Positions 54 through 28,931 of a DNA stretch of 40,106 nt are shown here, one piece after another; positions within the stretch are counted from its first letter, which is position 1, and every line of letters begins with the position of its first letter. The position numbers and the translations under genes were made by a program. Origin of the DNA: Fusibacillus kribbianus (lineage in GTDB: Bacteria > Bacillota > Clostridia > Lachnospirales > Lachnospiraceae); contig NZ_JASGBQ010000027.1 of the NCBI RefSeq assembly GCF_030053595.1, positions 1-40,106 of the forward strand, in the 5' to 3' direction. A model generated the notes under the pieces. That model searched no databases, was not told where the DNA came from, and saw nothing but the letters and a program-made list of their open reading frames with translations.

Positions 54-554
54 GTGAATTACTCCAACTCGCAAAGGGCTGGGGTAATTTTATATCTGAC
101 CGCATTATTATTTGGCGGTTACGATGGAGCGACTTTAGATATTCCAGAAAAAAATGAGATTACAGGTATTAAAGAGGCCTTGGTGGCATTAAAAGAAGAA
201 ACTTACGAGGAGAAAACAGATTTCCTGGATTTCTTCAAATCAAAATCTTCAACAGAACCTAAAGAGCTTGTTCGAGTAGAGATATGCTACTTCGAAAAAT
301 GGAGAGAAAAAGCAATTGAACTAATAATTCCTATTGCGGCACAGTACATTTCCGAAAACCAGCAGAATCTGCAGAATTATTATGATGAGTTGGCAAATCA
401 ATATCATGAAAAGTTGTCACTGTTACATGATTTCAAAATGGATGAAAAGACATGTATAGCATCTCAATTGTCAGAAGACGAAAGAATGTTGCAAGCTGAT
501 AATGATTGGCTGGTTGCATTAAAAGATCAATTGACAAAAATTGAAAGGGGTTAG
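54..554 (+). CDS. Hypothetical 166-aa protein, first gene of the HerA-nuclease cluster
   Basis: I do not recognise this family. The predicted protein is acidic, soluble and largely alpha-helical, with many Glu/Lys and Gln/Asn residues in its second half and no clear membrane segment or catalytic motif. An in-frame stop lies at 45-47, so the GTG at 54 is the earliest possible start; it has no convincing Shine-Dalgarno sequence. The gene may therefore be a truncated or shifted remnant of something longer upstream. It ends 6 bp before the HerA-like ATPase gene and runs in the same direction, so the two are probably co-transcribed. A role as partner or regulator of the ATPase is inference from position only. 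Confidence 0.6.
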   Translation: MNYSNSQRAGVILYLTALLFGGYDGATLDIPEKNEITGIKEALVALKEETYEEKTDFLDFFKSKSSTEPKELVRVEICYFEKWREKAIELIIPIAAQYISENQQNLQNYYDELANQYHEKLSLLHDFKMDEKTCIASQLSEDERMLQADNDWLVALKDQLTKIERG

Positions 555-560
555 TTTGGA

Positions 561-3590: not shown

Positions 3591-3592
3591 AC

Positions 3593-6830: not shown

Positions 6831-7194
6831 GATATTCACCTACCATTTCTCTTACTGCATCACGGATGTTGTAGATCTCAGCGATGCAGTCTTTTATATC
6901 CTTCCACATCTGATTTGTCATAGTGCCACCCTGGTTTAAATATCTTGCAATCTGGTTCAGGTTCGCTCCGAAGTGACCGAGATTACGAAAGATCTGCAGT
7001 ATTTCCGGATCGTTAAATACGATTTCCTGCCTGATCACCGGCTTGCGATTGGTGATCAATTGCCGGATGTATTCTGTCCGGGGAAGGCCTGCAGCTTCGG
7101 CATCTGCAGTCAGAACATTGTAGAGTTCTTCCGTAAATCGAATGGTCAGCTGATGATCCTTTGCCGGTGGTAATTGCTTCTTTGGTCTTGCCAT
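6817..7194 (-). CDS. mobC: MobC-like relaxosome accessory protein
   Basis: A 125-aa protein with an N-terminal ribbon-helix-helix region (DHQLTIRFTEELYNVLTADAE, then LPRTEYIRQLI) and the MobC signature around FRNLGHFGANLNQIARYLNQGG. MobC-type proteins bind oriT and help the relaxase open the strand. ATG at 7192-7194 follows a GGGAGG ribosome site. It is the first gene of the leftward mobilization pair and overlaps the relaxase start. Its upstream region carries the inverted and direct repeats described as the oriT candidate. Confidence 0.9.
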   Translation of the reverse strand: MARPKKQLPPAKDHQLTIRFTEELYNVLTADAEAAGLPRTEYIRQLITNRKPVIRQEIVFNDPEILQIFRNLGHFGANLNQIARYLNQGGTMTNQMWKDIKDCIAEIYNIRDAVREMVGEYRGSH

Positions 7195-7236
7195 ATGTTT
7201 TTCCTCCCTTTGATAAGCTGAAGGCGTTCAAAGACC

Positions 7237-7294
7237 GCACCTTTGGTGCTGTTGCCGTGGGTTTGGGGACCGGAATCCCCAACAAGTTGCCGTG
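7237..7294. other. Candidate oriT
   Basis: Just upstream of mobC lies a perfect 7-bp inverted repeat, TTGGGGA (7263-7269) and TCCCCAA (7276-7282), with a 6-nt spacer. It is bracketed by two direct copies of GTTGCCGTG (7251-7259 and 7286-7294), and a small CACC-TTT-GGTG palindrome lies at 7239-7246 or so. Repeats of this kind next to mobC are typical of origins of transfer. The nick position cannot be read from sequence alone. Confidence 0.5.
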
Positions 7295-7465
7295 ATGAAA
7301 TGGCCATGAAAATGGTTATTGAATCCCAAGGCGAAACTTGCTCTAAGTGAGTTGTAAAAAAGCCTTCTATATATTTGGTGTTTACGGGAAAGGGGAGGTG
7401 TGTACATAGATAATTGAAAAAGAAAACGGTATATACAAGAGGTGACAGCATAGCATTGCGAATAA

Positions 7466-7487
7466 GGTGTCGTTGCTTAGCGACACC
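7466..7487. repeat. Left GGTGTCG hairpin flanking the cargo
   Basis: GGTGTCG (7466-7472) and CGACACC (7481-7487) form a 7-bp stem with an 8-nt loop. It ends 6 bp before the -35 box of the cargo promoter. A hairpin with the same stem and a different loop lies at 27901-27926, after the last cargo gene. There is no following T-run, so this copy is not a classical terminator. Confidence 0.6.
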
Positions 7488-7493
7488 AAGGAA

Positions 7494-7522
7494 TTGACTT
7501 TAAGCGTGGTTTGGTATATAAT
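7494..7522 (+). promoter_or_regulatory. Sigma-A-type promoter of the defence operon
   Basis: The -35 box TTGACT (7494-7499) and the perfect -10 box TATAAT (7517-7522) are separated by 17 bp. It faces the small HTH gene and the long operon after it, and is the only strong promoter seen before the helicase gene. Confidence 0.8.
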
Positions 7523-7567
7523 TTAACATATCTAATGGTGTGTTTTTATCGGAAAAGGATGACAAAT

Positions 7568-7768
7568 ATGGAATATTTATCTCTTAGACAAACAGCAGAA
7601 AAATGGGGACTTTCAGTACGTAGAGTGCAGACTCTGTGCATCACAGATAGAATTCCAGGAGCAACAAAAATTGGTTCATACTGGGCTATTCCAGTTGATG
7701 CGGATAAGCCTAAAGATGAAAGGATAAAGAGTGGTAAGTATATAAAGAAACAAGGAAAAATGAAATAA
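7568..7768 (+). CDS. Excisionase-type helix-turn-helix protein (66 aa)
   Basis: A small MerR/excisionase-like (HTH_17) protein: YLSLRQTAEKWGLSVRRVQ forms the helix-turn-helix, followed by the wing RIPGATKIGSYWAIP and a basic tail. ATG at 7568 is chosen because AAAAGGA ends 9 bp before it; the ATG at 7559 touches that ribosome site. It is the first gene after the strong promoter and ends 37 bp before the helicase start, so it may regulate the defence operon. Small proteins of this kind commonly precede accessory operons in Lachnospiraceae. Its target site is unknown; the hairpin at 7466-7487 next to the promoter is a possible operator. Confidence 0.8.
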   Translation: MEYLSLRQTAEKWGLSVRRVQTLCITDRIPGATKIGSYWAIPVDADKPKDERIKSGKYIKKQGKMK

Positions 7769-7805
7769 TACTTTGAGAGCTAGAAGCTTCAAAGGAGATG
7801 GGGAT

Positions 7806-10800
7806 ATGGAACTAATTAACAATACGACAAAAAGATTAAGAGATGATTTGGCAGAAGAGATAAAACCAGGCAGCAAGTTGTCAATTGCAGCGGCATGCTT
7901 TTCTATTTATGCGTTTCAAGAATTAAAGAAGGAACTTCAGAGTATAAGTGAATTGCGTTTTATTTTCACGTCTCCAACCTTTACAACTGAGAAATCAAAA
8001 AAGGAAAGTAGAGAATTTTACATTCCACGATTGAACAGAGAGCGCAGTCTTTATGGAACGGAATTTGAGGTAAAGCTTAGAAATGAATTGACTCAGAAGG
8101 CGATTGCAAAAGAATGTGCAGAGTGGATTCGCAAGAAAGTCAAATTTAAGTCTAATGTAACAAATGAAAATATGATGGGCTTTATTAATCTGGATGACAA
8201 GAATTACATGCCTGTTAGTGGATTTACTACTGTTGACCTGGGATGTGAGCGTGGAAACAACGCATACAATATGGTTCAAAAAACGGAAGCACCCTTTTCC
8301 GCTGCGTACATGGAACTGTTTGAAAGCCTTTGGAATGACAATGTGAAATTGCAGGAAGTCACTGATGAAGTCATTGAGAACATTACTGCGGCTTATAACG
8401 AGAACTCTCCTGATTTTATTTATTTTGTAACTCTGTACAACATCTTTAATGAGTTCCTGGAAGATGTGTCGGAAGATAATCTTCCTAATGAAGCAACTGG
8501 GTTTAAGGAAAGTAAAATCTGGTCAATGCTTTATAATTTCCAGAAAGATGCTGTCCTTGCAATTATCAGTAAGCTAGAAAAATATAACGGTTGTATTCTG
8601 GCTGATAGTGTTGGTCTCGGGAAGACATTCACTGCACTGGCTGTAATTAAATACTATGAGAACAGGAATAAGTCTGTTCTTGTTTTATGCCCGAAGAAGC
8701 TGACCAACAACTGGAATACATATAAAGATAACTATGTGAATAACCCTATTGCAGTAGACCGACTGCGTTATGATGTTCTTTATCATACAGATTTGAATCG
8801 TACTCACGGCAAGTCCAATGGTCTGGATTTGGACAGATTAAATTGGAGCAATTACGACTTGGTTGTAATTGATGAATCCCACAACTTCCGTAATGGCGGA
8901 AAGTTGTCGGGTGAGGATAACGAAAAAGAAAATCGTTATCTGAAATTGCTGAATAAAGTTATCCGCAAAGGTGTTAAGACAAAGGTTTTAATGTTGTCTG
9001 CAACACCTGTTAATAATCGTTTCAATGACTTAAAGAACCAGCTGGCACTTGCTTATGAAGGCAACACCGATTTGATAGATGATAAGTTGAACACCACTCG
9101 TAGCATTGATGACATTTTCAAGAGCGCACAGAGAGCGTTCAATACATGGAGTAAATGGGAACCTGCTGATAGAACTACAGAAAATCTGCTTCGGATGTTG
9201 GACTTTGACTTCTTTGAGGTTCTTGATTCCGTAACGATTGCTCGTTCCCGTAAGCATATTCAGAAGTATTACGATACAACGGAAATTGGTACTTTCCCAA
9301 CCAGGTTAAAGCCGATTTCTTTGAGACCACCGCTTACTAATCTAAAGGAAGCAATTAACTATAACGAAATCTTTGAACAGCTTATGCAGCTGTCTTTGAC
9401 AATTTATACTCCTACCCATTTTATTCTTCCGAGTAAAATGGAGAAGTACGCTGAATTGTATGAGGACAACAAAGTGAATGTTGGATTTACTCAGGCGAAC
9501 CGAGAACAAGGTATTCGTCGTTTGACTGCAATCAATCTGATGAAACGAATGGAAAGTTCCGTGTATTCTTTCAATCTGACATTAAAGCGCATACAGGGAT
9601 TGATTGACTCGACAATTCACAGCATTGATGCTTACGACAAGACATCCTCTGTGAAGCTCGAACTGACTGACATTTCTGATATTGACGAGTTTGATGCAGA
9701 AGATCAGAACGGCGAAGAACTATTCACTTTCGGCAAAAAAGTAAAAATCGAAATTGGAGATATGGATTATAAGTCATGGAGAGACAGTCTTGTAAAAGAC
9801 CGTGATATACTGGAACTTCTCACTTTAATGGTTGGTGACATTACTCCGGAATATGACTGCAAGCTCCAGGAACTGTTCCGAGTTATCAAAGATAAGTTGG
9901 AGCATCCGATCAATGAGGGCAACAAGAAAATTATCATCTTCACAGCCTTTGCTGATACGGCTGGTTATCTCTATGACAACGTAAGCAAGTTCGTGAAAGA
10001 AAATTTTGAATTGAACACGGCAATGGTTTCCGGTTCCGTTGATGGACGCACGACTGTTCCGAAATTGCATAGCGATTTGAATACGGTGCTGACTTGTTTT
10101 TCACCTATTTCCAAGGACAAACATCTACTGATGCCAGGAGATAAAACAGAGATTGATTTACTGATTGCAACGGACTGTATCTCTGAAGGTCAGAACTTGC
10201 AGGACTGTGATTATCTGATCAACTACGATATTCATTGGAATCCTGTTCGTATCATTCAGCGTTTTGGTCGTATCGACCGTATTGGTAGTAAGAATGCTTA
10301 TATTCAGCTTGTAAATTTCTGGCCGGATGTAACACTCGACGAGTATATTGACCTGAAAGCAAAGGTTGAGACTCGTATGAAAATCGTTGATATGACAGCT
10401 ACCGGTGATGACAACCTTCTGAGCGAAGAAGAAAAGACTGACCTCGAATATCGTAAAGCACAGTTGAAACGCTTGCAGGAAGAAGTCGTTGATATTGAAG
10501 ATATGTCCACCGGCATTTCCATTATGGACTTGGGATTGAACGAGTTCCGCCTGGATTTGCTTGAGTATATCAAGTATCATCCTGACATCGAAAAAACTCC
10601 GTTTGGACTCCATTCTGTAGCGGCAGCTTCGGAAGATATGCCTGCGGGTGTCATCTATGTTTTGAAAAACCGTTCCAATAGCGTGAACATTGATAATCAG
10701 AACAGACTGCATCCGTTCTACATGGTTTACATTAGCAAGGATGGCGAAGTGATTTGCGATCATCTTTCCCCGAAGCAGATGCTTGATAAGATGCGTTTCC

Positions 10801-11042
10801 TCTGTAAAGGAAAGACCGAGCCTATTCCGGAACTGTATCGTCAGTTCAATAAGGAAACTCATGACGGTCGCAATATGTCTGAGTTCTCCAGACTGCTTGG
10901 CGATGCGATTTCCTCCATCATTGAGGTCAAAGAAGAAAGTGATATTGATAGCTTCTTAGGCGGCGGTCAGATCAGTTTCCTCACAAATGATATAAAAGGG
11001 TTGGACGACTTTGAACTGATTTGTTTCCTGGTTGTCCGATAA
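7806..11042 (+). CDS. SNF2-type helicase with PLD-like N-terminal region (defence operon)
   Basis: A 1078-aa superfamily 2 helicase. Residues about 10-150 resemble the PLD-like domain that precedes many defence helicases (SKLSIAAACFSIYAF, then RFIFTSPTF), but I see no intact HxK motif, so nuclease activity there is doubtful. Helicase motifs: Walker A DSVGLGKT (267-274), DESH (356-359), SATP (398-401), and motif V/VI with ATDCISEGQNLQ and QRFGRIDRIG (R819-G827). The QxxGRxxRxG motif with WNP before it is SNF2-like. ATG at 7806 follows AAAGGAG at 8-bp spacing; a TTG further upstream lacks a ribosome site. DUF4391, an RloC-like ATPase and Type III Mod/Res follow, so it is probably a translocase of a composite restriction system. 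Confidence 0.88.
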   Translation: MELINNTTKRLRDDLAEEIKPGSKLSIAAACFSIYAFQELKKELQSISELRFIFTSPTFTTEKSKKESREFYIPRLNRERSLYGTEFEVKLRNELTQKAIAKECAEWIRKKVKFKSNVTNENMMGFINLDDKNYMPVSGFTTVDLGCERGNNAYNMVQKTEAPFSAAYMELFESLWNDNVKLQEVTDEVIENITAAYNENSPDFIYFVTLYNIFNEFLEDVSEDNLPNEATGFKESKIWSMLYNFQKDAVLAIISKLEKYNGCILADSVGLGKTFTALAVIKYYENRNKSVLVLCPKKLTNNWNTYKDNYVNNPIAVDRLRYDVLYHTDLNRTHGKSNGLDLDRLNWSNYDLVVIDESHNFRNGGKLSGEDNEKENRYLKLLNKVIRKGVKTKVLMLSATPVNNRFNDLKNQLALAYEGNTDLIDDKLNTTRSIDDIFKSAQRAFNTWSKWEPADRTTENLLRMLDFDFFEVLDSVTIARSRKHIQKYYDTTEIGTFPTRLKPISLRPPLTNLKEAINYNEIFEQLMQLSLTIYTPTHFILPSKMEKYAELYEDNKVNVGFTQANREQGIRRLTAINLMKRMESSVYSFNLTLKRIQGLIDSTIHSIDAYDKTSSVKLELTDISDIDEFDAEDQNGEELFTFGKKVKIEIGDMDYKSWRDSLVKDRDILELLTLMVGDITPEYDCKLQELFRVIKDKLEHPINEGNKKIIIFTAFADTAGYLYDNVSKFVKENFELNTAMVSGSVDGRTTVPKLHSDLNTVLTCFSPISKDKHLLMPGDKTEIDLLIATDCISEGQNLQDCDYLINYDIHWNPVRIIQRFGRIDRIGSKNAYIQLVNFWPDVTLDEYIDLKAKVETRMKIVDMTATGDDNLLSEEEKTDLEYRKAQLKRLQEEVVDIEDMSTGISIMDLGLNEFRLDLLEYIKYHPDIEKTPFGLHSVAAASEDMPAGVIYVLKNRSNSVNIDNQNRLHPFYMVYISKDGEVICDHLSPKQMLDKMRFLCKGKTEPIPELYRQFNKETHDGRNMSEFSRLLGDAISSIIEVKEESDIDSFLGGGQISFLTNDIKGLDDFELICFLVVR

Positions 11043-11063
11043 CATAGAAAGCGAGGTGGGATA

Positions 11064-11672
11064 ATGCTTGGTTTGCCAAAAGCAACAGAACTGAATAAGC
11101 AGCTTCCCAAGAATGCGATTTATGCGAAGTTCCAGATGAACACCGCAGAGAAAGCAAAAATAGATGCTGATATTTCGAGGATCACCATTGTCAATGAGGT
11201 ATCCTCTGCAAAAGTAAATATTGCAGACGGTGAGCAGGTCAAATCTTTCTTCGTCCTTATGGTTGCTTTGAAAAAGAAAGACTTTGATGACAAGACCATT
11301 ATTACCATTTCAAAACTAATCCCACAGAATATGTTGCTTGTGCTTGAGTGTGGTGGAGAAGCAAAACTCGCCACCTACCACACCAAGCTGATGCAGACGG
11401 ATTGGAAATGTAAAGAAGATATTTCCATAGAACTGAAAGGATTGAACATGGATGCCGTTTGGGAGAACATCATCGTTCAGATCGGCGGCATTACCATAGA
11501 ACAGGGCAACACCCTGGATGAACAGATTGCGGTCGACGAACAGAGAATGAAGATTCAAAAGGAAATCGACCGCTTGACTAAAGCTGCGAAGAATGAAAAG
11601 CAACCGAAGAAAAAGTTTGAGCTGGCACAAAAAATCAACAGACTCAAGCTGGAAATGGAGAAATCTGAATGA
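11064..11672 (+). CDS. DUF4391 family protein
   Basis: A 202-aa protein I recognise as DUF4391 from its opening LGLPKATELNKQLPKNAIYAKF, the core IIVQIGG and the C-terminal basic coiled coil. The biochemical role of this family is not known. It is regularly found beside SNF2-like helicases and Type III or adenine methyltransferases, which fits its position here. ATG at 11064 follows GAGGTGGG. Its stop overlaps the ATG of the next gene (ATGA overlap), implying translational coupling and stoichiometric production with the ATPase. The N-terminal 130 residues look like a mixed alpha/beta domain; no catalytic signature is evident to me. Confidence 0.85.
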   Translation: MLGLPKATELNKQLPKNAIYAKFQMNTAEKAKIDADISRITIVNEVSSAKVNIADGEQVKSFFVLMVALKKKDFDDKTIITISKLIPQNMLLVLECGGEAKLATYHTKLMQTDWKCKEDISIELKGLNMDAVWENIIVQIGGITIEQGNTLDEQIAVDEQRMKIQKEIDRLTKAAKNEKQPKKKFELAQKINRLKLEMEKSE

Positions 11673-13900
11673 TACGAAAAATCAAATTAGACAAGATACC
11701 TCCATATATTGGCTGTGCGCAAGTCATTGAACCGAAGAAGGTCAATTTTATATTTGGCCTGAATGGAAGTGGAAAGACAACAATAAGTCGCTTCTTGCGC
11801 TGTCACAATAATCCGGAATACCATGACTGTATGTTGGAATGGAGCGGAAATCCATTAAGCTGTTCTGTATATAATCGAGATTTTGTACAGGACAATTTTA
11901 GCGAGTCATCAATTCCGGGTATTTTTACATTGGGGGAAGAAAACATTGAAACCCAGCGAAGAATAGATGCGCTCAACGGAGAAATTAGTGCTCTCCAAGA
12001 AAGAAAAAAAAGCTTAAAAGAGACCATTGATGGTTCTGACTCAGCATTAGGTCTAAAACAGAAGCTGACCTCACTCGAAAACTCATATAATGACAAGTTT
12101 TGGAGTGTTAAACAACGATTGGATCACGATGATAGCCCTCTTAAACTGGCTATATCTGGGGTAAGAGGCAATAAGGAGACTTTTAAGACGACCCTATTGG
12201 CGCAGAACACTAAAAATCAAGCGGAACTACAGCCCAAGGATGAACTGGAAACACTGTGTTCTCAACTGTTTGGTACCGTTGTAGAACGTGTCGATTCTAT
12301 TCCCACAGTTTCCTTTGAACGGCTGCTTGCGCAGGAATCATCAGACATACTTCAGAAGGTTATTGTCGGAAAAGAAGATGTTGATATAGCCGGACTTATA
12401 AAAAAATTGGGAAATGATACTTGGTTCAGGCAAGGTGTTTCATATATTGAGCATAGTGAAGGGAAATGCCCGTTCTGCCAAAGAGAACTTGAAGCGAGTT
12501 TTTCTGAAAAGGTGGCTGAGTATTTTGATGAAACATACCTGCGAGAAATTCAAGCTATAACTGATTTGCAAAATAGTTATAATCGTGAATCCAATACTGT
12601 TATTTCTCAAGTGAGTGCGTTACTTGTCAACCCTACAGAGTTTTTGGGTAAGCCCGATTTAGAAGCAGCGTTACAGCAACTTAGAGCAATCATCGAGACA
12701 AATTCTGCACGGATAAAAGCCAAAAAGGAGTCCCCTAATATTGTGATACATCTTGAAACGGTGAATGAGGTCGCTTCGGCAATCGGAGATATTATTTCAA
12801 AAGCTAATTGTGCTATTGCAACACACAATACTCGAATTGCGAACATTCGCAATGAAAGAGCAGCACTTACCAACAAGGTATGGAGGTATATCCTAAATGA
12901 GCTTGCATCAGATATAGAAGCTTATCTTTCTGAAAAGAACGGGCTTAATACAAGTCTGGTAGCCGCTGATGGTGAAATGGGATGTATTGAAAGAAGCATA
13001 ACTGAAAAAACGGCAGAGCGTAGGCAGTATGAGCAGCAACTTACGAGTGTCGTTCCTACAGCAAATGGAATCAATGAGTTACTTAGAAACTATGGCTTTA
13101 CAGGATTTTCGCTAAAAGTTGATGATTCACAGCACAATTACCAGTTCATTCGTGAATCCGGTGAGCCGGCCTTTGAGTCTTTAAGTGAGGGTGAACGAAA
13201 CTTCGTTACGTTTTTGTATTTCATGTACTCGCTCAAAGGGAACATAGATGCAAGCGGTCACAATGATGATAAGGTTGTGGTGGTAGACGACCCGGTATCG
13301 AGTCTGGATAACGATGTATTATTCCTTGTCAGCTCTTTGTTGCGTGATTTATTTGCAGGTATATACGCTGGTTCGGCAGCAATAAAGCAAATATTCATAC
13401 TCTCACACAATCTCTATTTTTTCAAAGAGGTTTCGTATGATAAGGGCTTGAAAAAGTCCATGACAGGATATTGGATGATTCGAAAGTCAAGCAATGTATC
13501 AGAGATTATTGCATACATCACGAATCCTATAAGTTCAACATATGAAATGCTATGGGACGAAATACGAAACGCAAGCATTGCTCCCGAAAATCATAATACT
13601 GCGGTTCTGGCAAATACAATGCGCAGGATATTGGAGCATTATTTCAAGCTATTAGGTGGAATGGATCTCAATACATTTCATCTGCAATTTCCAGACGGAG
13701 AACGACAAGTGTTCAAATCCTTAATTTCCTGGTCAAATTCAGGTTCGCATTCTGCTTTTGACGATTTTTCAGCAACTCCCAATATGTTTGATGTGGAAAA
13801 GCACTTAATGGTATTTAAGGAATTGTTCTCTAAGGCCGGACACACAGCGCATTACAATATGATGATGAGAATCAATACGGAGGAAGAAACAAATGGATAA
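11669..13900 (+). CDS. RloC/PrrC-like ABC ATPase with zinc hook and putative anticodon-nuclease C-terminus (743 aa)
   Basis: An AAA_13-type ABC/SMC-like ATPase. Walker A is GLNGSGKT (30-37), followed by a coiled coil with CPFC (C267-C270), matching the zinc hook of RloC. A second coiled coil leads to the signature LSEGER (505-510), Walker B KVVVVDDP (535-542) and D-loop SSLD (544-547). The C-terminal 140 residues hold R652, E656 and H694, spaced much like the Arg-Glu-His catalytic triad of PrrC anticodon nuclease. PrrC is kept silent by a partner restriction enzyme and released when phage inhibits it; RloC responds to DNA damage. This protein sits inside a restriction operon, so a second-line tRNA-cleaving guard is plausible. 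The nuclease assignment is inference. It overlaps mod by 8 bp. Confidence 0.82.
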   Translation: MIRKIKLDKIPPYIGCAQVIEPKKVNFIFGLNGSGKTTISRFLRCHNNPEYHDCMLEWSGNPLSCSVYNRDFVQDNFSESSIPGIFTLGEENIETQRRIDALNGEISALQERKKSLKETIDGSDSALGLKQKLTSLENSYNDKFWSVKQRLDHDDSPLKLAISGVRGNKETFKTTLLAQNTKNQAELQPKDELETLCSQLFGTVVERVDSIPTVSFERLLAQESSDILQKVIVGKEDVDIAGLIKKLGNDTWFRQGVSYIEHSEGKCPFCQRELEASFSEKVAEYFDETYLREIQAITDLQNSYNRESNTVISQVSALLVNPTEFLGKPDLEAALQQLRAIIETNSARIKAKKESPNIVIHLETVNEVASAIGDIISKANCAIATHNTRIANIRNERAALTNKVWRYILNELASDIEAYLSEKNGLNTSLVAADGEMGCIERSITEKTAERRQYEQQLTSVVPTANGINELLRNYGFTGFSLKVDDSQHNYQFIRESGEPAFESLSEGERNFVTFLYFMYSLKGNIDASGHNDDKVVVVDDPVSSLDNDVLFLVSSLLRDLFAGIYAGSAAIKQIFILSHNLYFFKEVSYDKGLKKSMTGYWMIRKSSNVSEIIAYITNPISSTYEMLWDEIRNASIAPENHNTAVLANTMRRILEHYFKLLGGMDLNTFHLQFPDGERQVFKSLISWSNSGSHSAFDDFSATPNMFDVEKHLMVFKELFSKAGHTAHYNMMMRINTEEETNG

Positions 13901-15893
13901 ATTGAAGATGCACACCCCTAACAGGGCTGATGATAATTTCAAGAAACTCGCAGCATTGTTCCCGAATGCTGTTACTGAAACGATCAATGAGAACGGCGAA
14001 GTGGTACGTGCGATTGATAAGGATGTTCTGATGCAGGAAATTTCCTGCACAGTAGTTGAGGGCAAAGAGGAACGCTATCAGTTCACTTGGCCTGACAAAA
14101 AGAAGTCTATGCTTCTTGCAAATGCACCTATTTCAAAAACGCTGCGTCCTTGTCGTGAGGAAAGTGTTGATTTTGACAGCACCGAAAACCTTTATATTGA
14201 AGGCGATAATCTGGAAGTTTTGAAACTCCTACAAGAGACGTATCTTGGCAAAGTGAAAATGATTTACATAGATCCTCCATACAACACCGGTAGCGATTTT
14301 GTTTATGAGGATGATTTTGCTCAAAGTGCGAGCGAATATCTTGCAAATAGTGGACAGTTTGATGCAGAAGGAAACAGACTGGTACAGAACACGGATACAA
14401 ATGGGCGTTTTCATTCGGATTGGCTTAACATGATTTATCCAAGATTGAAACTCGCTAAAGATCTGTTGACCGATGATGGTGTGATATTTATTGCCATTGA
14501 CGATAATGAAAACATCAATATGGCAAAAGTATGTAGTGATGTGTTTGGAGAATCTAATTTTGTTGGTTGTCTAATTATTCAAACTGCAACAGATAATAAT
14601 CCGAGACAAATTAACACCGAGCATGAGTATGTTTTGTGTTATGCGAAAAATAGTGTTCTTCTTGAAAGTTGGCAGGCAGAAAGTGAGAAAGCGCAGCTGA
14701 TTATGGATAAGTACAAAGAGTTGAAAGCAACTTTCGGCTCGAATTTGAGTGTTATCCAGGACGAACTGCGCAAATGGATCAAGAAAAATGCAGATGCACT
14801 TAAGGGTGTTACGCATTATGATAACGTCGATGAAAAAGGTGTATTCCATGACGGTGATATTGCGAACACGGTTTTTGGCGGTTACAACTATGAGATTATG
14901 CATCCAGTAACAGGTAAGCCTTGCAAAGTTCCTGATAAGGGATTTAGATTTGCAGAAAAGACCATGCGTGAGATGATTGCTGCAGGCGACATCATGTTTG
15001 GTGCTGACGAGACAACGCTGATTAAACCGAAAAAGCGTCTGGAAAATGCAAAAGACGTTCTTCGTTCTGTAATTTACGAAGATGGTCGTGCTTCAACCAA
15101 ACAGTTTGAAAGCCTTATGGCAAGAGATATTTTCCAGAATCCTAAATCTCCAATGATTATTGAAAGGCTCATCAATTTTATTGTAAAGCCTGGAGATATT
15201 GTGATGGACTTCTTCTCCGGAAGTGCAACTACCGCAGAAGCAGTTATGCGGTTAAATGCCAAATATCCTGATAAGAAGATTCGTTTCATTATGGTGCAAT
15301 TACCTGAAGATTTGGACGAGTCTATTTCAAAGGCGGATAGTCGTGCTAAAAAGATACTCCAGAACGCAGTGAAGTTCTTGGATTCTATAAATAAGAAGCA
15401 TACTATCTGTGAAATTGGTAAAGAGCGCTTACGCCGTGCAGGTGCAAAAATCAAATCCGACAACGGACTTACTGATGATGAATTGGATGTTGGTTTCCGT
15501 GTCCTGAAATGTGACACATCCAATATGAAGGATGTTTATTACAGTCCTGCTGAGTACGAAATGGACTTGTTCGACTTTATGACTGATAATATTAAGGAAG
15601 ATAGAACTTCTGAGGACTTGCTGTTCCAGGTTATGCTTGATCTTGGCGTTGAACTTTCCAGCAAGATTGAGGAAACGGTCATCGCCGGCAAGAAAGTATT
15701 TAATGTTGCCGATGGCTTCCTGATTGCCTGCTTTGATGCGGATGTGACTGACGAGACCATCAAGGCTATTGCTCAGAAGCAGCCTTATTATTTCGTGATG
15801 CGTGATAGTTCTTTGGCAAATGATAGTGTCGCTACGAACTTTGAGCAAATTTTTGCTACATACAGTCCTGACACAGTAAGGAAGGTGCTGTAA
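13893..15893 (+). CDS. mod: Type III restriction-modification DNA methyltransferase (Mod)
   Basis: A 666-aa beta-class adenine methyltransferase, the usual length for Type III Mod. The catalytic motif DPPY (D127-Y130, in YIDPPYNTGSDF) precedes the AdoMet-binding motif DFFSGSATT (439-447), the order expected of the beta class. The region between, about residues 190-400, should hold the target recognition domain, and the C-terminal third is the part that contacts Res in this family. It reads and methylates one strand of a short asymmetric site, protecting self DNA. Its start overlaps the ATPase gene and its stop overlaps the next start by 1 bp. The recognition site cannot be predicted from sequence here. 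Confidence 0.92.
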   Translation: MDKLKMHTPNRADDNFKKLAALFPNAVTETINENGEVVRAIDKDVLMQEISCTVVEGKEERYQFTWPDKKKSMLLANAPISKTLRPCREESVDFDSTENLYIEGDNLEVLKLLQETYLGKVKMIYIDPPYNTGSDFVYEDDFAQSASEYLANSGQFDAEGNRLVQNTDTNGRFHSDWLNMIYPRLKLAKDLLTDDGVIFIAIDDNENINMAKVCSDVFGESNFVGCLIIQTATDNNPRQINTEHEYVLCYAKNSVLLESWQAESEKAQLIMDKYKELKATFGSNLSVIQDELRKWIKKNADALKGVTHYDNVDEKGVFHDGDIANTVFGGYNYEIMHPVTGKPCKVPDKGFRFAEKTMREMIAAGDIMFGADETTLIKPKKRLENAKDVLRSVIYEDGRASTKQFESLMARDIFQNPKSPMIIERLINFIVKPGDIVMDFFSGSATTAEAVMRLNAKYPDKKIRFIMVQLPEDLDESISKADSRAKKILQNAVKFLDSINKKHTICEIGKERLRRAGAKIKSDNGLTDDELDVGFRVLKCDTSNMKDVYYSPAEYEMDLFDFMTDNIKEDRTSEDLLFQVMLDLGVELSSKIEETVIAGKKVFNVADGFLIACFDADVTDETIKAIAQKQPYYFVMRDSSLANDSVATNFEQIFATYSPDTVRKVL

Positions 15894-16606
15894 TGGGGGT
15901 AGATTTATTCGAGAGCAAAGATGCTTGGAAAAAAATAGATACAAAGGCTTTGATGGATATTATTCCAAACTACTTTGAATTTACAGGGGATATTGAAAAG
16001 TCAGCATATCTGAATTGGCGCTTTAATTTTATTCGTGATACCGAATGCCAGTTTTATGAGATGGGAAAAGCTTATTTTGAAACAGCAATACATCTTATTG
16101 ATGAATGCATAAAAGATAACAGCGATAAGAAAGCAGATATCTGGATTTTTCCTATTTTGTTCAATGTCGTACATGGCACGGAGATATATCTTAAAGGCTT
16201 TAATTCGCAAATTCGGATATTAGAAAAGATTGAAAAACAAGAATATCAGGAAAGTCGGATTGAGGGAAAGCATAACATTCTGCAACTGTGTCAAACAGCA
16301 ATAAGTTTAATCCGATTGAGTTCGCACAAAGATTTGCTTCCAGAGTTCGAGTTTGTAAAGAGCTTTATTGATATTCTCTATGCCAACACAAACGATATGA
16401 CTTTCGCTCGGTATCCTGTGGATAGCGGCAAACAACCGCATTTTTATGTTCAAAAGACAGAAAATATCACAATCGATCTTGATGTTTTGAGAATATGGGT
16501 TTGTAAGGTTTTTGAAATTCTCGATGGTTGCACCGGATTTGTCGATTTTCAAATAGACCAGATAAAAGAATGGCTTTATGAAATGCAACAAGAATACGGT
16601 GAGTAA
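15893..16606 (+). CDS. Unknown alpha-helical protein inserted between mod and res, possibly HEPN-like (237 aa)
   Basis: I do not recognise a named family. The protein is predicted to be nearly all helical. The stretch HGTEIYLKGFN followed about 30 residues later by GKHNILQLCQ resembles the layout of HEPN proteins (helix ending in a long-chain partner, then a GH-x-L helix), and FARYPVD later also fits. A clear Rx4-6H catalytic motif is not obvious, so an inactive or binding HEPN is as likely as an RNase. Its start shares the TAATG junction with mod. The gene is bracketed by near-identical junction sequences (see findings), which suggests a later insertion into a mod-res pair. It might be an immunity, inhibitor or toxin partner of the operon. 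Confidence 0.6.
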   Translation: MGVDLFESKDAWKKIDTKALMDIIPNYFEFTGDIEKSAYLNWRFNFIRDTECQFYEMGKAYFETAIHLIDECIKDNSDKKADIWIFPILFNVVHGTEIYLKGFNSQIRILEKIEKQEYQESRIEGKHNILQLCQTAISLIRLSSHKDLLPEFEFVKSFIDILYANTNDMTFARYPVDSGKQPHFYVQKTENITIDLDVLRIWVCKVFEILDGCTGFVDFQIDQIKEWLYEMQQEYGE

Positions 16607-16617
16607 GGAGTGCTGTA

Positions 16618-19600
16618 ATGAAATTTAATTTTAAGATACAGCAATATCAGACGGATGCCGTTGATGCTGTTGTCAAGGTATTCCAGGGTCAGGGATACCA
16701 CGACAGAATCAGCTATATCCGTGATGTTGGCAAAAAGCAAGAGGTTCAGCAGATGCGGCTGAATGTGGAAATGGATCAGCAGTATTCTCTTGACCTTGGT
16801 GAAAATCGTCAGCTGAACATCTATGACATGGATGACGATGATACCGGCTATAAGAATGAAGTTGTTGAATTAAGCGATGAACAGCTGCTGATTAACATTC
16901 AGAAGCTCCAGAGCCAGAACAACATTAAGCAGTCCAAAGCTCTGGTTAAGGACTTGGGCAGATGCAGCCTTGATATTGAAATGGAGACCGGCACTGGCAA
17001 GACCTACGTATATATCAAGACCATGTTCGAGCTGAACAAGAAGTACGGTTGGAGCAAGTTCATTGTTGTTGTCCCTTCTATCGCTATTCGTGAGGGCGTT
17101 AATAAGACTTTTGAAATTACTGCCGATCACTTTATGGAGCATTATGGAAAGAAAGCCCGTTTCTTCATTTACAATAGCTCAAACCTGAACCAGCTGGATA
17201 ACTTTTCTTCCAGTTCCGGTATCAATGTGATGATTATCAATACGCAGGCTTTCGCTTCCTCTCTGAAAGAAGATGGAAAGAGCAAAGAAGCTCGTATTAT
17301 ATACTCCAAGCGTGACGAGTTTGGTTCTCGTCGCCCAATTGATGTTATCAAGGCGAACAGACCGATTATCATTCTGGACGAGCCGCAAAAAATGGGTGGT
17401 GCTGTTACCCAAAAGGCCCTGAAAAACTTTAACCCTCTGTTTACACTGAACTACTCTGCAACCCATGCCGTTCAGCATAATACCGTTTATGTGCTGGATG
17501 CCCTGGATGCGTTCAACAAGCGCCTGGTTAAGAAAATTGAGGTTAAGGGTTTTGAAGTAAAGAACTTCCGTGGAACGGACAGCTATATGTTCTTGGAGCA
17601 AATTGTTCTTTCGCCTAAAAAACCGCCTATGGCCCGGATTGAGCTTGAAATCGGCTACAACAAATCTATCAATCGTGAGACCCGTATTCTCGGTGTAGGA
17701 GATGACCTCTACTATGTTTCTCAGGAAATGGAACAGTACAAGGGATACACCATCTCTGATATTGATCCGTTCCGTGGCACAGTGACCTTTACCAATGGCG
17801 AAGTAATCAAAGCCGGTGAAGTTTCTGGTGATGTGTCTGAATCTGATATGCGTAGGATTCAGATTCGTGAGACCATTATTTCCCACTTCGAGAAAGAAGA
17901 AAAACTGTTCAACATGGGTATTAAGTCCCTCTCTCTGTTTTTCATTGACGAGGTTTCCAAGTATCGCCAGTATGATGCTGATGGCAACGAACTTCTTGGT
18001 GAATATGGGCAGATGTTTGAACAGGAATACCTGAATGTGCTGAATGAGTACATTACCGTTTTCGATACCCCTTACCAGAAATACCTGAGATCCACTTGTA
18101 GTGATGTAAGTGCGGTACATAAAGGGTATTTCTCTATTGATAAAAAGACGGGTAGAAGTATCGACAGCCAACTGAAGCGTGGCAGCGAGTTCTCTGATGA
18201 TATTTCTGCTTATGATTTGATTTTGAAGAATAAAGAGCGTCTGCTCTCCTTTGACGAGCCGACTCGCTTTATCTTCTCTCACTCCGCGTTGCGTGAAGGT
18301 TGGGATAACCCTAATGTATTCCAGATTTGTACACTGAAGCATTCCGATAGCCAGACAGCAAAGCGTCAGGAAGTTGGTCGTGGTCTCCGTTTGTGCGTAA
18401 ACCAGTATGGTAATCGTATGGATGCTGAAAGCTGTGGTGACACTGTTCACGACATCAATATGCTGACGGTTATCGCAAGCGAAAGCTACAAAGGCTTTGT
18501 CGAAGATCTCCAGAGTGATATTAAGACGGTTCTCTATGACAGACCGACTACGGCTACCAGCGAATACTTCAACGGTAAGTGCGTCAAGATCGATGTGACT
18601 CCGACTCTCATCGACAAGAGTATTGCTGATACCATTGAGTTCTATCTTATCAGCAATGGCTATGTTGATATGAAGCGTAAGGTTACTGATAAGTACCGTA
18701 CCGATGTGAAGATGGGAACCGTTGCTCCACTGCCTGAAGAAATTCAGCCGATGGCAGATGGTATTCATACCCTGATTCAGTCTGTTTACGATGACAGCGT
18801 TCTCAAGAATATGTTTACGGATGGTCACGAGACCAAGGTTAAGGATAACCCTCTGAATGATAACTTTGCAAAGGCTGAGTTCCAGGCACTTTGGAAGCAG
18901 ATTAATCATCGTTATGCTTATACTGTTGATTTTGATAGTGATGAGTTGATCCGCAAGTCTATTGCTCATATAAATGAGAAGCTATTTGTTGCAGAACTTC
19001 AATATACAACGACTGTTGGTAGACAGAAGTCTCAAATGAATGAATACGAGATAAACCGTGGCGATTCATTTATTAGAGAAAGTTCTGGAACATATACATT
19101 GAAACATGCTCAGACCAGTCAGATCAAGTATGACCTTATTGGCAAGATTGCTGAAGGTACGGTTCTTACGCGCAAAACTGTTGCAGCAATTCTGAAAGGC
19201 TTGAGAGCTGATAAACTCTATATGTTTAAGAACAATCCAGAGGAGTTTATCTCTAAGGTGGGTAAACTTATTAAAGAACAGAAGGCCACCATGATTGTTG
19301 AACATATTTCCTACGATCAGCTTGAAGGTGGTTATGATAGCACCATCTTTACGGCTGAAAAGAGTTCCCAGACCTTTGATAAGGCTTTTCATGCGAATAA
19401 AGCAATTCAGGACTATGTGTTCACGGATGGCTCTGCCGAAAAGAGCATTGAGCGTCGTTTTGTTGAAGATCTGGATGCTGCGCAGGAAGTTTGTGTTTAT
19501 GCAAAACTGCCGAAGGGCTTCCATATCCCAACTCCAGTTGGAAATTATTCACCTGACTGGGCGATAGCCTTTTATGAAGGAACCGTGAAACATATTTTCT

Positions 19601-19767
19601 TTGTGGCAGAAACTAAGGGAACAATGGATAGTTTGAACCTCAGACCTATTGAACAGGCAAAGATTTCTTGTGCGAAGAAACTGTTTAACGAAATGTCTAC
19701 ATGCAAGGTTAAATACCACGATGTAGATAGCTATCAGAATTTGCTGAATGTGATGAAGTCTTTGTAG
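16618..19767 (+). CDS. res: Type III restriction endonuclease subunit (Res)
   Basis: A 1049-aa superfamily 2 helicase-nuclease, the typical Res size. Walker A is ETGTGKT (123-129), motif II is DEPQ (254-257) in place of DEAD/DEAH, which is common in Res, and motif III is YSATH. The arginine-rich motif VI is RQEVGRGLRL. Near the C-terminus PDW (P979, D980) and ETK (E998, K1000) give the PD-(D/E)XK nuclease. Res uses ATP to move or diffuse along DNA after Mod binds an unmethylated site, and cuts at head-to-head site pairs. ATG at 16618 follows AAGGAG at 7-bp spacing. Codon choice in the first two thirds looks more GC-rich than in the preceding small gene, a hint of different histories. Confidence 0.93.
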   Translation: MKFNFKIQQYQTDAVDAVVKVFQGQGYHDRISYIRDVGKKQEVQQMRLNVEMDQQYSLDLGENRQLNIYDMDDDDTGYKNEVVELSDEQLLINIQKLQSQNNIKQSKALVKDLGRCSLDIEMETGTGKTYVYIKTMFELNKKYGWSKFIVVVPSIAIREGVNKTFEITADHFMEHYGKKARFFIYNSSNLNQLDNFSSSSGINVMIINTQAFASSLKEDGKSKEARIIYSKRDEFGSRRPIDVIKANRPIIILDEPQKMGGAVTQKALKNFNPLFTLNYSATHAVQHNTVYVLDALDAFNKRLVKKIEVKGFEVKNFRGTDSYMFLEQIVLSPKKPPMARIELEIGYNKSINRETRILGVGDDLYYVSQEMEQYKGYTISDIDPFRGTVTFTNGEVIKAGEVSGDVSESDMRRIQIRETIISHFEKEEKLFNMGIKSLSLFFIDEVSKYRQYDADGNELLGEYGQMFEQEYLNVLNEYITVFDTPYQKYLRSTCSDVSAVHKGYFSIDKKTGRSIDSQLKRGSEFSDDISAYDLILKNKERLLSFDEPTRFIFSHSALREGWDNPNVFQICTLKHSDSQTAKRQEVGRGLRLCVNQYGNRMDAESCGDTVHDINMLTVIASESYKGFVEDLQSDIKTVLYDRPTTATSEYFNGKCVKIDVTPTLIDKSIADTIEFYLISNGYVDMKRKVTDKYRTDVKMGTVAPLPEEIQPMADGIHTLIQSVYDDSVLKNMFTDGHETKVKDNPLNDNFAKAEFQALWKQINHRYAYTVDFDSDELIRKSIAHINEKLFVAELQYTTTVGRQKSQMNEYEINRGDSFIRESSGTYTLKHAQTSQIKYDLIGKIAEGTVLTRKTVAAILKGLRADKLYMFKNNPEEFISKVGKLIKEQKATMIVEHISYDQLEGGYDSTIFTAEKSSQTFDKAFHANKAIQDYVFTDGSAEKSIERRFVEDLDAAQEVCVYAKLPKGFHIPTPVGNYSPDWAIAFYEGTVKHIFFVAETKGTMDSLNLRPIEQAKISCAKKLFNEMSTCKVKYHDVDSYQNLLNVMKSL

Positions 19768-19785
19768 ATCATAATATGTTATGAT
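19768..19785 (+). other. Hairpin directly after res
   Basis: ATCATAA (19768-19774) and TTATGAT (19779-19785) form a perfect 7-bp stem with the loop TATG, starting at the base after the res stop. No T-run follows. It could be a weak terminator, an mRNA processing or stability element, or an operator for the WYL regulator that follows. Confidence 0.45.
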
Positions 19786-19804
19786 TGCCGGGAGGTTTTA
19801 GTAG

Positions 19805-19828
19805 ATGGAAAATAGAGGTGGAGAATGA
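19805..19828 (+). CDS. Possible 7-codon leader peptide before the SGNH-WYL gene
   Basis: ATG at 19805 is preceded by GGAGG at 19791-19795 and reads MENRGGE, stopping at TGA 19826-19828, which overlaps the ATG (19825) of the SGNH-WYL gene in an ATGA arrangement. Such a mini-reading frame could couple translation of the regulator to ribosome passage. It may equally be chance. Confidence 0.25.
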   Translation: MENRGGE

Positions 19829-21399
19829 GAATCTTAATGCTCGGCAACAGCTTTACATTTGTAAATAACATGCCAGATAAGCTGGCCCAGCTGACAGGGG
19901 CAGAAGTAATCCACCACACCCGTGGCGGGGCGCGCCTTGCAGAACAGCTTAATCCGGAAACCAAGATGGGTAGCTTGACTCAGGCTGCACTTCAGAACGA
20001 GAAATGGGACTATGTCATTCTTCAGGAGATGAGTAATGGCCCTGTTACGTCAAAAGATAGTTTCCTGAAGAATGTTGGCCTTCTCTGTGAGAAAATACGG
20101 GCCAATGGTGCAATGCCTGTTCTTTATGCGACATGGGCTTATCAAAAAGGTGGAAAACAGTTAGCGTCTTTTGGTATGGACTATGATGAAATGTATCAAA
20201 AGATGCATGATGCTTATCATGAGGTCGCCGCTCAGAATAGAGCATTGATTGCAGATGTAGGAAAGCGTTTCTATGAATTAGCTGACCGGCAGAACATCTA
20301 TGCAGAAGATGGATGCCATCCGAATGAATCGGGATCACAGATTGCCGCGCAAGTGATAGCAGATGTCATTCTGGCAGATCAAGCTAAACATACAGAGGTA
20401 GTTGTAGAAACAACCGCAGATGACAACGATACCCGCCTGCGAATTCTGTACTTATATCAAATGCTTCTTACTCAGTCTGATGAGGAACATCCGCTTTCAA
20501 CAAAGCAGATCACCGATCGCATGATGGAACAGCACAATATTCATATGCATAGAACCACCGTACCGAAGGATATAGAGCTCTTAAGGGCAGCCGGCTTTGA
20601 CATCATTGGCGTTCGCAGACGTGCTTGGGAATATCATCTTGCGGATCGACAGTTTTCCTTGCCGGAACTTAAGCTTTTGATTGATGCCGTTCAGTCTTCT
20701 AAGTTTATTACGGAAAAGAAGAGCAAGATTCTGATCGAAAAGCTGATCTCTCTGACAAGTGAGAACAATGCGGACAAGCTGCAGAGAACAGTACATATCA
20801 CCGGTAGAGCCAAAACTGATAATGAAAAAGGATATTACATCGTGGATGCAATCAACGATGCTATGAACGCCGGAGTTAAGATTTCCTTCCTGTATTTTGA
20901 TTATGATGGAAAGAAAAAACAGATACTTAGAAACGATGGCAATCCTTACACCGTTAGTCCTTACGATTTGATTTGGGACGGAGATTTCTATTATCTTACC
21001 GGCTATTGCGATGAACGTGAAGAAGTTAGAGTTTTTCGTGTGGATCGAATCAAAAAGCAGCCGGAACTGTTGAAAGATATTATGGTCAAACCGCCAAAAG
21101 GATACTCTGTTACGAAATACACGCAGGAGGTATTTCGTATGTTTGATACCCAGGAGATTTCTGAAGTGGTACTGTTGTGTGAAAATTCTGCAATGAAATC
21201 TATCATTGATCGCTTTGGCATCACAATTCGTACAAAGTCTCTCGATGATGAACATTTTCAGGTCAAGGTTAAGGTCTGCGCCGGACCGACATTCTATCGT
21301 TGGGTGTTTGGATTTGATGGGAAAATCAAAATAGTTGGACCGGATGAAATAAAAAAGCAGTACAGAGAACGCTTACTTCGTGCACTTGAAGAAATCTGA
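19825..21399 (+). CDS. SGNH hydrolase-WYL transcription regulator fusion (524 aa)
   Basis: Residues 1-185 form an SGNH/DUF4886-like esterase domain: block I GNSFT with Ser9, and block V DGCHPNESG with Asp162 and His165, giving a full Ser-Asp-His set. After a short acidic linker (about 186-200), residues 200-290 resemble the winged HTH of WYL regulators (PLSTKQITDRM, then RTTVPKDIELLRAAGFDI). Residues 350-425 hold the WYL domain with PYDLIWDGDFYYLTGY (FYYL at 388-391) and the C-terminal extension follows. WYL regulators such as BrxR and CapW control phage-defence operons by sensing a ligand. Here a hydrolase could make, remove or recognise that ligand. The fusion is read through without any stop or internal ribosome site that I can see. 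ATG 19825 follows GAGGTGGAG. Confidence 0.8.
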   Translation: MRILMLGNSFTFVNNMPDKLAQLTGAEVIHHTRGGARLAEQLNPETKMGSLTQAALQNEKWDYVILQEMSNGPVTSKDSFLKNVGLLCEKIRANGAMPVLYATWAYQKGGKQLASFGMDYDEMYQKMHDAYHEVAAQNRALIADVGKRFYELADRQNIYAEDGCHPNESGSQIAAQVIADVILADQAKHTEVVVETTADDNDTRLRILYLYQMLLTQSDEEHPLSTKQITDRMMEQHNIHMHRTTVPKDIELLRAAGFDIIGVRRRAWEYHLADRQFSLPELKLLIDAVQSSKFITEKKSKILIEKLISLTSENNADKLQRTVHITGRAKTDNEKGYYIVDAINDAMNAGVKISFLYFDYDGKKKQILRNDGNPYTVSPYDLIWDGDFYYLTGYCDEREEVRVFRVDRIKKQPELLKDIMVKPPKGYSVTKYTQEVFRMFDTQEISEVVLLCENSAMKSIIDRFGITIRTKSLDDEHFQVKVKVCAGPTFYRWVFGFDGKIKIVGPDEIKKQYRERLLRALEEI

Positions 21400-21436
21400 G
21401 ATAGGAGGATACCGACTTGTATTCGGGAGTGAGATT

Positions 21437-28677: not shown

Positions 28678-28699
28678 CTGTCAGGAGGCGATTTTGCAA

Positions 28700-28891: not shown

Positions 28892-28931
28892 GTTAGGAAA
28901 AAATAGAATCATGATCCGGAGGAGCACTGTT

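Follow-up and report, generated by a model that had tools for sequence, protein, structure and literature searches.

The 40,106-nucleotide (nt) stretch of the Fusibacillus kribbianus genome analyzed here (contig NZ_JASGBQ010000027.1, positions 1 to 40,106; hereafter the window) carries a type III restriction-modification (R-M) operon in which the modification and restriction genes, mod and res, are accompanied by genes for an SNF2 helicase (hereafter HEL), a DUF4391 protein, an RloC-like ABC ATPase and a protein of 237 amino acids (aa). All six open reading frames (ORFs) lie on one strand, separated by gaps of 21, -4, -8, -1 and 11 nt. This agrees with the original prediction, made from the sequence of the locus, of a co-directional six-gene operon with overlaps or short gaps, and profile matches and motifs uphold the identities it assigned to the SNF2 helicase, the DUF4391 protein, the zinc-hook ABC ATPase, the DPPY methyltransferase and the PD-(D/E)XK Res. 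The features are listed below, where core and cargo denote the two classes of gene distinguished further on.

7494..7522, + strand: sigma-70-type promoter TTGACT-N17-TATAAT, an 11/12 consensus match and the best of the region, assigned by consensus match alone
7568..7768, + strand: small HTH_17/excisionase-like DNA-binding protein of 66 aa, first gene of the operon (weak Pfam match)
7809..11042, + strand: HEL, SNF2-family SF2 helicase with a PLD-derived N-terminal domain lacking HxK; core (PADLOC C3a139)
11064..11672, + strand: DUF4391 protein, predicted adaptor; core (PF14335, E=1.7e-33)
11669..13900, + strand: RloC-like ABC ATPase and putative anticodon nuclease, 743 aa; cargo in the DUF4391-Mod interval (PDC-S06, PF13166, motifs)
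13893..15893, + strand: Mod, type III N6-adenine methyltransferase; core (PDLC03634, 4zcf_A, DPPY)
15893..16606, + strand: 237-aa protein without family match; cargo in the Mod-Res interval
16618..19767, + strand: Res, type III restriction subunit with SF2 ATPase and PD-(D/E)XK domains; core (PDLC03647, 4zcf_C)
19825..21399, + strand: WYL-domain protein with an N-terminal SGNH/DUF4886 hydrolase-like half and a helix-turn-helix, starting 57 nt past Res

The single consensus promoter of the prediction is likewise upheld, TTGACT-17-TATAAT being the sole 11/12 match within 7000-21500, a region with 20 promoter-like sites in total, fewer than the mean of 34.5 in shuffled sequence. Between this promoter and the helicase stands a seventh operon member (7568-7768), whose Pfam match of 21.5 bits lies below the cut-off of 27. 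Relatives of this gene are found directly upstream of HEL at 4 of 96 loci, the window counted, and it is possibly an accessory regulator of the operon. HEL itself more likely starts at ATG 7809, which is preceded by AAGGAG, than at TTG 7773.

By sequence, the window Mod and Res are EcoP15I homologues with intact catalytic residues. Mod matches PDLC03634 (713 bits) and the EcoP15I Mod subunit (4zcf_A, E=1.3e-87), its only Pfam match being PF01555, and Res matches PDLC03647 (947 bits) and the EcoP15I Res subunit (4zcf_C, E=3.2e-76). The window thus has what defines a type III R-M system: an EcoP15I-like Mod with DPPY and FxG motifs and a Res with an SF2 ATPase and a C-terminal PD-(D/E)XK domain. 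Residue conservation was followed at 77 loci with four near-full-length core genes, loci with shorter genes or with a DUF4391 missed by the profile having been dropped. DPPY is invariant in all 77, the Phe of FxG in 76 and the Ser after FxG in 74; in Res, D980, E998 and K1000 and the tested Walker, DE and motif VI residues are invariant in 77 of 77. Two cassettes (L005, L016) hold two Mod genes each, which possibly represent two specificities sharing one Res.

HEL carries the Pfam SNF2 and Helicase_C domains and matches over its full length the PADLOC model C3a139 'HKD+Snf2' (422 bits), a name that presumably hints at an accessory of CRISPR type III systems; in this analysis the model marks type III R-M. 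The matches that follow are to DrmD-type defence helicases (121 bits in PADLOC, 144.3 bits in NCBIfam) and to HmaA (85 bits in PADLOC). The tested helicase residues are invariant at 77/77 loci, apart from the Ser of SAT (76/77). In the N-terminal part, the HxK that would precede GSxN is absent at the aligned place from 75 of 76 sequences, the window HEL among them, and the HxK strings that 13 other HEL proteins have within residues 1-240 stand at other places or are scattered. The divergent HEL of L115 (10515-13772, minus strand; 47% identical to the window HEL) has retained HGK, with GSSNFT..GLG after it, in the manner of a classical phospholipase D (PLD) signature, and because of this retention the N-terminal domain is regarded as of PLD descent. 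Judged from these motifs, the domain is a PLD relic, decayed in nearly all copies including that of the window, and L115 may possibly represent the ancestral state of the helicase. The PLD-like part first proposed for the helicase therefore stands as to origin and falls as to catalysis, and the window HEL as an active PLD nuclease is ruled out by the loss of HxK.

The DUF4391 protein scores 116.9 bits against a gathering cut-off of 29.9 (PF14335). Its AlphaFold2 prediction (pLDDT 95.6) consists of an alpha/beta domain followed by a long C-terminal helical hairpin, and its nearly invariant positions (P5, K16, W114, E178, Q180) include no recognizable catalytic or nuclease set at the sequence level. 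The open-access literature searched yielded no mention of DUF4391 with type III restriction or of PF14335, and DUF4391 by name only as a table entry in one paper.

HEL, DUF4391, Mod and Res recur together as a core of four genes, and the claim that helicase and DUF4391 are tied to mod/res far beyond chance is confirmed whether one starts from HEL, from DUF4391 or from Res. For the HEL-based set, the best 80 loci were taken of at least 585 HEL relatives found in one scan of the genome collection. DUF4391 lies downstream of HEL at 68 of the 69 loci with at least 1.2 kb of sequence there, Mod at 64 of the 65 with at least 4 kb and Res at all 63 with at least 8 kb; the sole exception is L066, whose HEL is in pieces. 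The order is HEL-DUF4391-Mod-Res except in L031, where Mod-Res lies directly upstream of HEL-DUF4391. Full cores are present in Verrucomicrobiota (L076), Lentisphaerota (L026) and Deferribacterota (L077), and further full-core loci are ones that we take, from their record titles, to belong to Bacillota and Bacteroidota.

An independent sample comprised 398 genomes drawn evenly from the window's phylum, taken to be Bacillota in view of its nearest named relatives (Anaerotignum, Gemmiger and Lachnospiraceae). DUF4391 is present in 34 of these, and all 35 places besides the window were examined. At 32 of 34 testable places, L112 being at a contig edge, DUF4391 is preceded on its own strand by a HEL match above 200 bits; these helicases include broken or shortened ones (L118, L120, L121, L138) and two truncated at the end of a contig (L114, L137). 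In L143 and L144, where no such match was found, fragments of HEL score 74 and 70 bits, and Mod stands beside DUF4391 at 33 of 33 testable places. Three of the DUF4391 genes (L124, L135, L136) were detected by Pfam and missed by our own profile. Counted from the helicase, with 13 partial or weak rows left out (L187 among them), HEL aligns over at least 1000 residues at 29 places, 28 of which adjoin DUF4391; at the last, L186, the contig stops 1.5 kb past HEL within a 271-aa ORF.

The Res-based set covers 59 of 77 PF19778 rows (28 in DUF4391 regions or the window and 31 others), the 18 rows at or below 38.5 bits being omitted. Many of these rows lie at contig edges, and 33 loci count as resolvable, with a Res of at least 500 bits, a Mod and no less than 4.5 kb of upstream sequence. 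HEL is found at 26 of the 33, with the window counted and with the helicase in pieces at L138 and shortened at L121. The other seven show HEL fragments (L143, L144, L150), a 33-bit trace (L158) or no HEL (L152, L153, L162). In a tree of 94 Res sequences, rooted on the distant two-gene loci L172 and L173 and drawn without branch supports, two-gene loci are nested in the four-gene clade, as is L161, at which Mod was not found; HEL and DUF4391 therefore look old and occasionally lost. That mod and res are all a type III system requires is true of EcoP15I but sits poorly with this clade, in which most resolvable loci have the helicase and the two-gene cases are nested.

The intervals of the core frequently hold additional genes. 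Extra same-strand ORFs of at least 85 aa occur inside the core at 56 of the 93 loci with HEL, Mod and Res; these are ORF calls rather than curated genes, and where the profile missed DUF4391 the first ORF of 160-300 aa after HEL was taken in its place. Such cargo ORFs are co-directional with the core in 116 cases and on the opposite strand in 4. By interval, the 116 divide into 60 in DUF4391-Mod, 48 in Mod-Res and 8 in HEL-DUF4391, and they are tightly packed: 90 begin within 30 nt after the preceding gene and 53 overlap it. A Pfam scan was made of 94 proteins, namely 93 ORFs of L002-L081 and the 237-aa protein; it did not extend to the cargo of L111-L145 or to 9 ORFs from loci that were not resolved. 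In one batch of 43 it returned RhuM (5), YhcG/DUF1016 (3), Fic (3), Abi_C (2) and Schlafen (2), and in the other batch of 51 it returned DUF4365 (4), TIR (4), Schlafen (4) and one each of AbiH, AbiU2, Abi_C, Fic, YoeB, ParE and AbiEi. Many cargo genes are thus, by their profile matches, of abortive-infection, TIR, Schlafen, Fic or RhuM type. The control, 94 genes drawn at random from 254 eligible ones more than 2 kb upstream of HEL at the same loci, matched mostly metabolic and mobile-element families; none of the cargo families above is among the 25 listed of its 139, and any family outside the listed 25 matches at most one control protein. PADLOC family counts do not serve as a measure of enrichment: the 94 cargo proteins gave 113 and 134 families and the 94 controls 116, because one protein matches dozens of models. 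PADLOC matches in the control include some defence genes (Gabija GajB, RTasHel and PDCs).

Turnover of the cargo is fast. Homologous cargo is shared by 7 of 39 pairs of cargo-bearing loci at HEL identities of at least 80%, by 4 of 105 at 70-80%, by 23 of 569 at 60-70% and by 8 of 67 below 60%. The RloC-like and 237-aa genes are cargo in this sense, the same intervals holding different genes elsewhere: phmmer found neither at any of the 80 HEL loci, 63 of which extend at least 8 kb downstream. The single added layer made of helicase, DUF4391 and ATPase, which had been proposed, does not survive this result, and the six-gene unit as a conserved system is ruled out. Plain clustering in a defence island, with the core being four unrelated neighbouring defence genes, would explain why cargo and flanks hold other defence genes. 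We nevertheless rate this explanation as very improbable, given that the core retains its order and near-complete linkage across five phyla and plasmids while the cargo is freely exchanged even between close relatives, and that DUF4391 or full-length HEL genes away from Mod/Res were not found, broken or contig-edge cases apart.

Among the cargo, the ATPase of the window belongs to the AAA_13 family (PF13166; PDC-S06, 795 bits) and has a Walker A motif at 30-38, a CPFC zinc hook at 267-270, LSEGER at 505, Walker B at 537 and a putative nuclease triad, R652-X3-E656-X37-H694. RloC proteins have been defined, in the account cited, by ABC motifs, a CXXC-bearing coiled-coil insert, a length of 658-897 aa and Arg-X3-Glu-X36-52-His (PMC2610378). 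With 743 aa, CXXC and R-X3-E-X37-H, the window ATPase conforms by sequence to this definition, as predicted, and is likely a tRNA-cutting anticodon nuclease. That account places 8 of 72 RloC genes within type I or III loci (PMC2610378), and both PrrC and RloC have been argued there and elsewhere to serve as a back-up to restriction (PMC2610378, PMC3710099). Within the 398 genomes, PDC-S06 matches of at least 79 bits were found at 20 places, of which 6 are in or beside a cassette (the window, G009 twice, G134, G210 and G133); RloC is therefore a recurrent but optional companion. Three of the six (L127, L129 and L132) lie just downstream of Res, each after a gene of 440-441 aa, and lack the aligned histidine. 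That loss, together with the resemblance of a zinc-hook ATPase to Rad50, would suit a DNA-break sensor that aids the core instead of a suicide RNase; for the window copy, which keeps R-X3-E-X37-H inside the published range, we consider such a role distinctly unlikely. The same genome encodes a second RloC/PDC-S06-type gene away from type III cassettes (L147, G000:C25:12576-14867), in which the RxxxE motif reads RxxxQ.

The 237-aa protein had no match, at the thresholds used, in Pfam, PADLOC, NCBIfam, PHROG or PDB; by eye its pattern is vaguely HEPN-like, with no profile confirming this. It occurs in 1 of the 398 genomes, its own, and has distant relatives in 4 plasmid records and none in the scan of viral contigs. 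One relative (L183, 715-1377) lies beside lysis genes on a prophage-like Paraclostridium plasmid, and the neighbourhood of phage lysis genes is a frequent place for stand-alone phage-encoded defence genes.

Co-divergence of the core proteins was measured as the rank correlation (rho) of protein distances over the 77 loci. Mod-Res (0.80) and DUF4391-Res (0.78) correlate most closely, followed by HEL-DUF4391 (0.63) and HEL-Res (0.57). The DUF4391-Res correlation persists at a partial rho of 0.66 given HEL and 0.55 given Mod, whereas HEL-Res falls to 0.17 given DUF4391 and DUF4391-Mod to 0.11 given Res. DUF4391-Res exceeds HEL-Res by 0.21 (bootstrap 95% 0.11 to 0.31) and HEL-DUF4391 by 0.15 (0.05 to 0.25), intervals in which the bootstrap over related loci understates the uncertainty; for the 73 loci nearer the window, DUF4391-Res is 0.71 against 0.42 for HEL-Res and 0.51 for HEL-DUF4391. 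Gene proximity does not account for this, for of the core genes Res lies farthest from DUF4391. The ends of Mod (up to position 170 and from 530 onward) give 0.91 with Res and 0.75 with DUF4391; the target-recognition region (190-415, a boundary set by our own reading of Mod anatomy) gives -0.01 with Res, -0.03 with HEL and 0.05 with DUF4391. Because its correlation with this region is so far below those with Res and the Mod ends, a role of DUF4391 in recognition is unlikely; DUF4391 as a specificity factor is rejected for want of co-divergence, and the proposal of an added layer acting with Mod's recognition is disfavoured. Windows along Res all behave alike toward DUF4391 (rho 0.58 to 0.73) and single out no interface. 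At the level of protein distances, the pattern fits a chain HEL-DUF4391-Res/Mod.

HEL and DUF4391 might instead constitute a separate antiphage machine, akin to the BREX helicase or the DrmD of DISARM and acting on replication intermediates, for which the Mod methyl mark would be the self-signal and which would travel with mod/res out of need. The likeness of HEL to DrmD-type helicases and HmaA speaks for this, as does L031, in which a MOD-RES block precedes a HEL-DUF4391 block. We consider it somewhat unlikely, as the correlation of DUF4391 with Res and with the ends of Mod is higher than that with HEL and as, among the 65 HEL loci followed by at least 4 kb, no full-length HEL lacks a Mod, the exception L066 being in pieces. 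The reading we prefer, with a probability of roughly 55%, is that the locus encodes a four-gene type III R-M system in which DUF4391 would couple a second DNA motor to Res/Mod, with embedded suicide modules as a back-up.

As described for EcoP15I, an ATP-driven switch sets the Mod2Res complex sliding, and cleavage follows when it meets a second enzyme (PMC4490356). In the four-gene system, Mod2-Res would mark self DNA by N6-adenine methylation of one strand, and at unmodified sites ATP would switch the complex into a sliding state as in EcoP15I. As a structural adaptor, DUF4391 may bind both Res and the ends of Mod and bring in HEL, a double-stranded DNA motor whose decayed PLD nuclease domain would now be a non-catalytic part. 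HEL would supply the directed translocation or remodelling of double-stranded DNA that the sliding enzyme lacks, stripping obstacles or driving communication between distant sites and so enabling Res to cut. Cleavage could thereby extend to single sites, sites in one orientation and protein-covered or replicating DNA, where the two-subunit enzyme fails. The embedded RloC would be the back-up, triggered by phage inhibition of restriction or by a build-up of DNA breaks; the ABC/zinc-hook part of RloC would then free the C-terminal nuclease, and the resulting tRNA cleavage would stop translation in the infected cell.

Several observations weigh against this coupled system. Same-clade Mod/Res loci without HEL and DUF4391 exist (L152, L153, L158, L162), so these two genes are not strictly essential, and L187 is a 657-aa piece of HEL with no other core gene in 12 kb. 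No fusion of DUF4391 to HEL, Mod or Res, nor of Mod to Res, was found in a search that excluded HEL-Res fusions because helicases cross-match. DUF4391 also tracks HEL given Res (partial rho 0.35), and co-divergence can stem from joint inheritance of a cassette, with unequal rates affecting rho. Loss of the PLD nuclease is not universal either, since L115 has an apparently intact HxK.

The system occurs on mobile elements. HEL relatives (E up to 1e-30) were found in 121 of 72,556 plasmid records, in 97 of which a single place covers at least 80% of the query, and in 5 of 50,697 phage records. The HEL version of Escherichia coli plasmid pHS30-1 is present in 10 of 5,426 E. coli genomes, 9 of the 10 places being on plasmids. 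Four-gene cores free of cargo are found on an E. coli plasmid, on a Listeria plasmid and in Erysipelothrix phage phi1605; in the latter two, the gene after HEL is otherwise named and matches the DUF4391 profile (72 and 65 bits). Mobile elements must enter unmodified hosts, and together with the SNF2 motor and its decayed nuclease domain this could point to HEL and DUF4391 as a control or safety device that unloads or restrains a sliding Res on host DNA (restriction alleviation) after damage or entry of the element. Such a device is, in our estimate, quite improbable, given that two-gene relatives exist without HEL and DUF4391, though other means of control may serve these.

The window locus itself looks like part of an integrative mobilizable element, encoding a relaxase and MobC (5229-7194, minus strand) as well as a tyrosine integrase (32224-33630). 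Two families of short direct repeats were found, none convincing as element ends, and of five short repeat rows that might mediate phase variation none lies inside mod. The WYL/SGNH-DUF4886 protein (19825-21399) is a possible operon regulator whose membership of the operon is uncertain; a WYL gene also stands upstream of HEL in L042. At 54-5101, a HerA/FtsK-like ATPase (561-3590) is flanked by a 166-aa protein and a protein resembling DNA/RNA non-specific endonucleases (3593-5101), and these genes could be another conflict module. Downstream of the operon, a very large secreted-looking repeat protein (21380-25267) is followed by a 769-aa protein (25227-27536) whose C-terminal part weakly matches a WHH nuclease (E=0.003), and 28063-29902 holds an S24-type repressor and, further along, an ImmA/IrrE-like protein that matches PADLOC capP (67 bits).

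Several known systems resemble this one. DISARM class 1, which consists of DrmD, DrmMI, DrmA, DrmB and DrmC, likewise joins an SNF2 helicase to an adenine methyltransferase and a second SF2 helicase. The window HEL, however, reaches 144.3 bits against a DrmD cut-off of 610, and among the PADLOC matches listed for the operon proteins (25 of 45 for HEL and 25 of 34 for Mod) there is no DrmA, DrmB or DrmC apart from the general helicase likeness of HEL to DrmA; membership of DISARM is thereby ruled out. Defence genes nested inside other systems, both the embedded 'PDC' genes and Hma-embedded candidates, reportedly feature in a 2024 preprint by Payne et al. The BR systems type 2 centred on Hma/DUF499 share an HKD-type helicase, an adenine methyltransferase, a small alpha+beta protein (DUF3780 in BR) and embedded back-up effectors, but are built, in the description cited, on a DUF499 ATPase, a DUF1156 methyltransferase and an HKD effector (PMC12839542), where the present locus has a type III Mod, a PD-(D/E)XK Res and a mostly lost HxK. 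No DUF499 ATPase or DUF1156 methyltransferase is present in the window operon, whose ATPase is AAA_13 with no HmaC among its 20 PADLOC families and whose Mod matches PF01555 only, and Hma/BR membership is ruled out. PrrC in type I R-M loci, and RloC, offer precedents for an ABC-ATPase anticodon nuclease embedded in an R-M locus, as presented in the papers cited (PMC2610378, PMC3710099), the difference being that here the gene sits inside a four-gene type III core as one of many alternative cargos. EcoP15I (Mod2Res1; PDB 4zcf) is homologous in Mod and Res over the catalytic parts but, as far as the account cited goes, consists of Mod and Res only, whereas the SNF2 helicase and DUF4391 are near-constant extras here (PMC4490356). 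The accessible text of the open-access literature searched, a body that includes few subscription papers and neither preprints nor the survey of Payne et al., contained no description of the four-gene core.

Type III enzymes have been described as Mod and Res, and one Mod/Res clade keeps two further genes at 26 of 33 resolvable loci. The finding gives the orphan family DUF4391 a context and a testable function, and it delineates a type of restriction system that PADLOC divides between type III R-M and a helicase filed as C3a139. The core intervals are in addition a source of candidate defence genes, the unannotated 237-aa protein included. More broadly, and tentatively, a large part of gut-bacterial and plasmid type III R-M may be a four-component machine, in which DUF4391 would physically couple an SNF2 motor with a mostly decayed nuclease domain to Mod/Res and alter site finding or cutting, and in which exchangeable suicide modules in the same operon would be released when the core is disabled.

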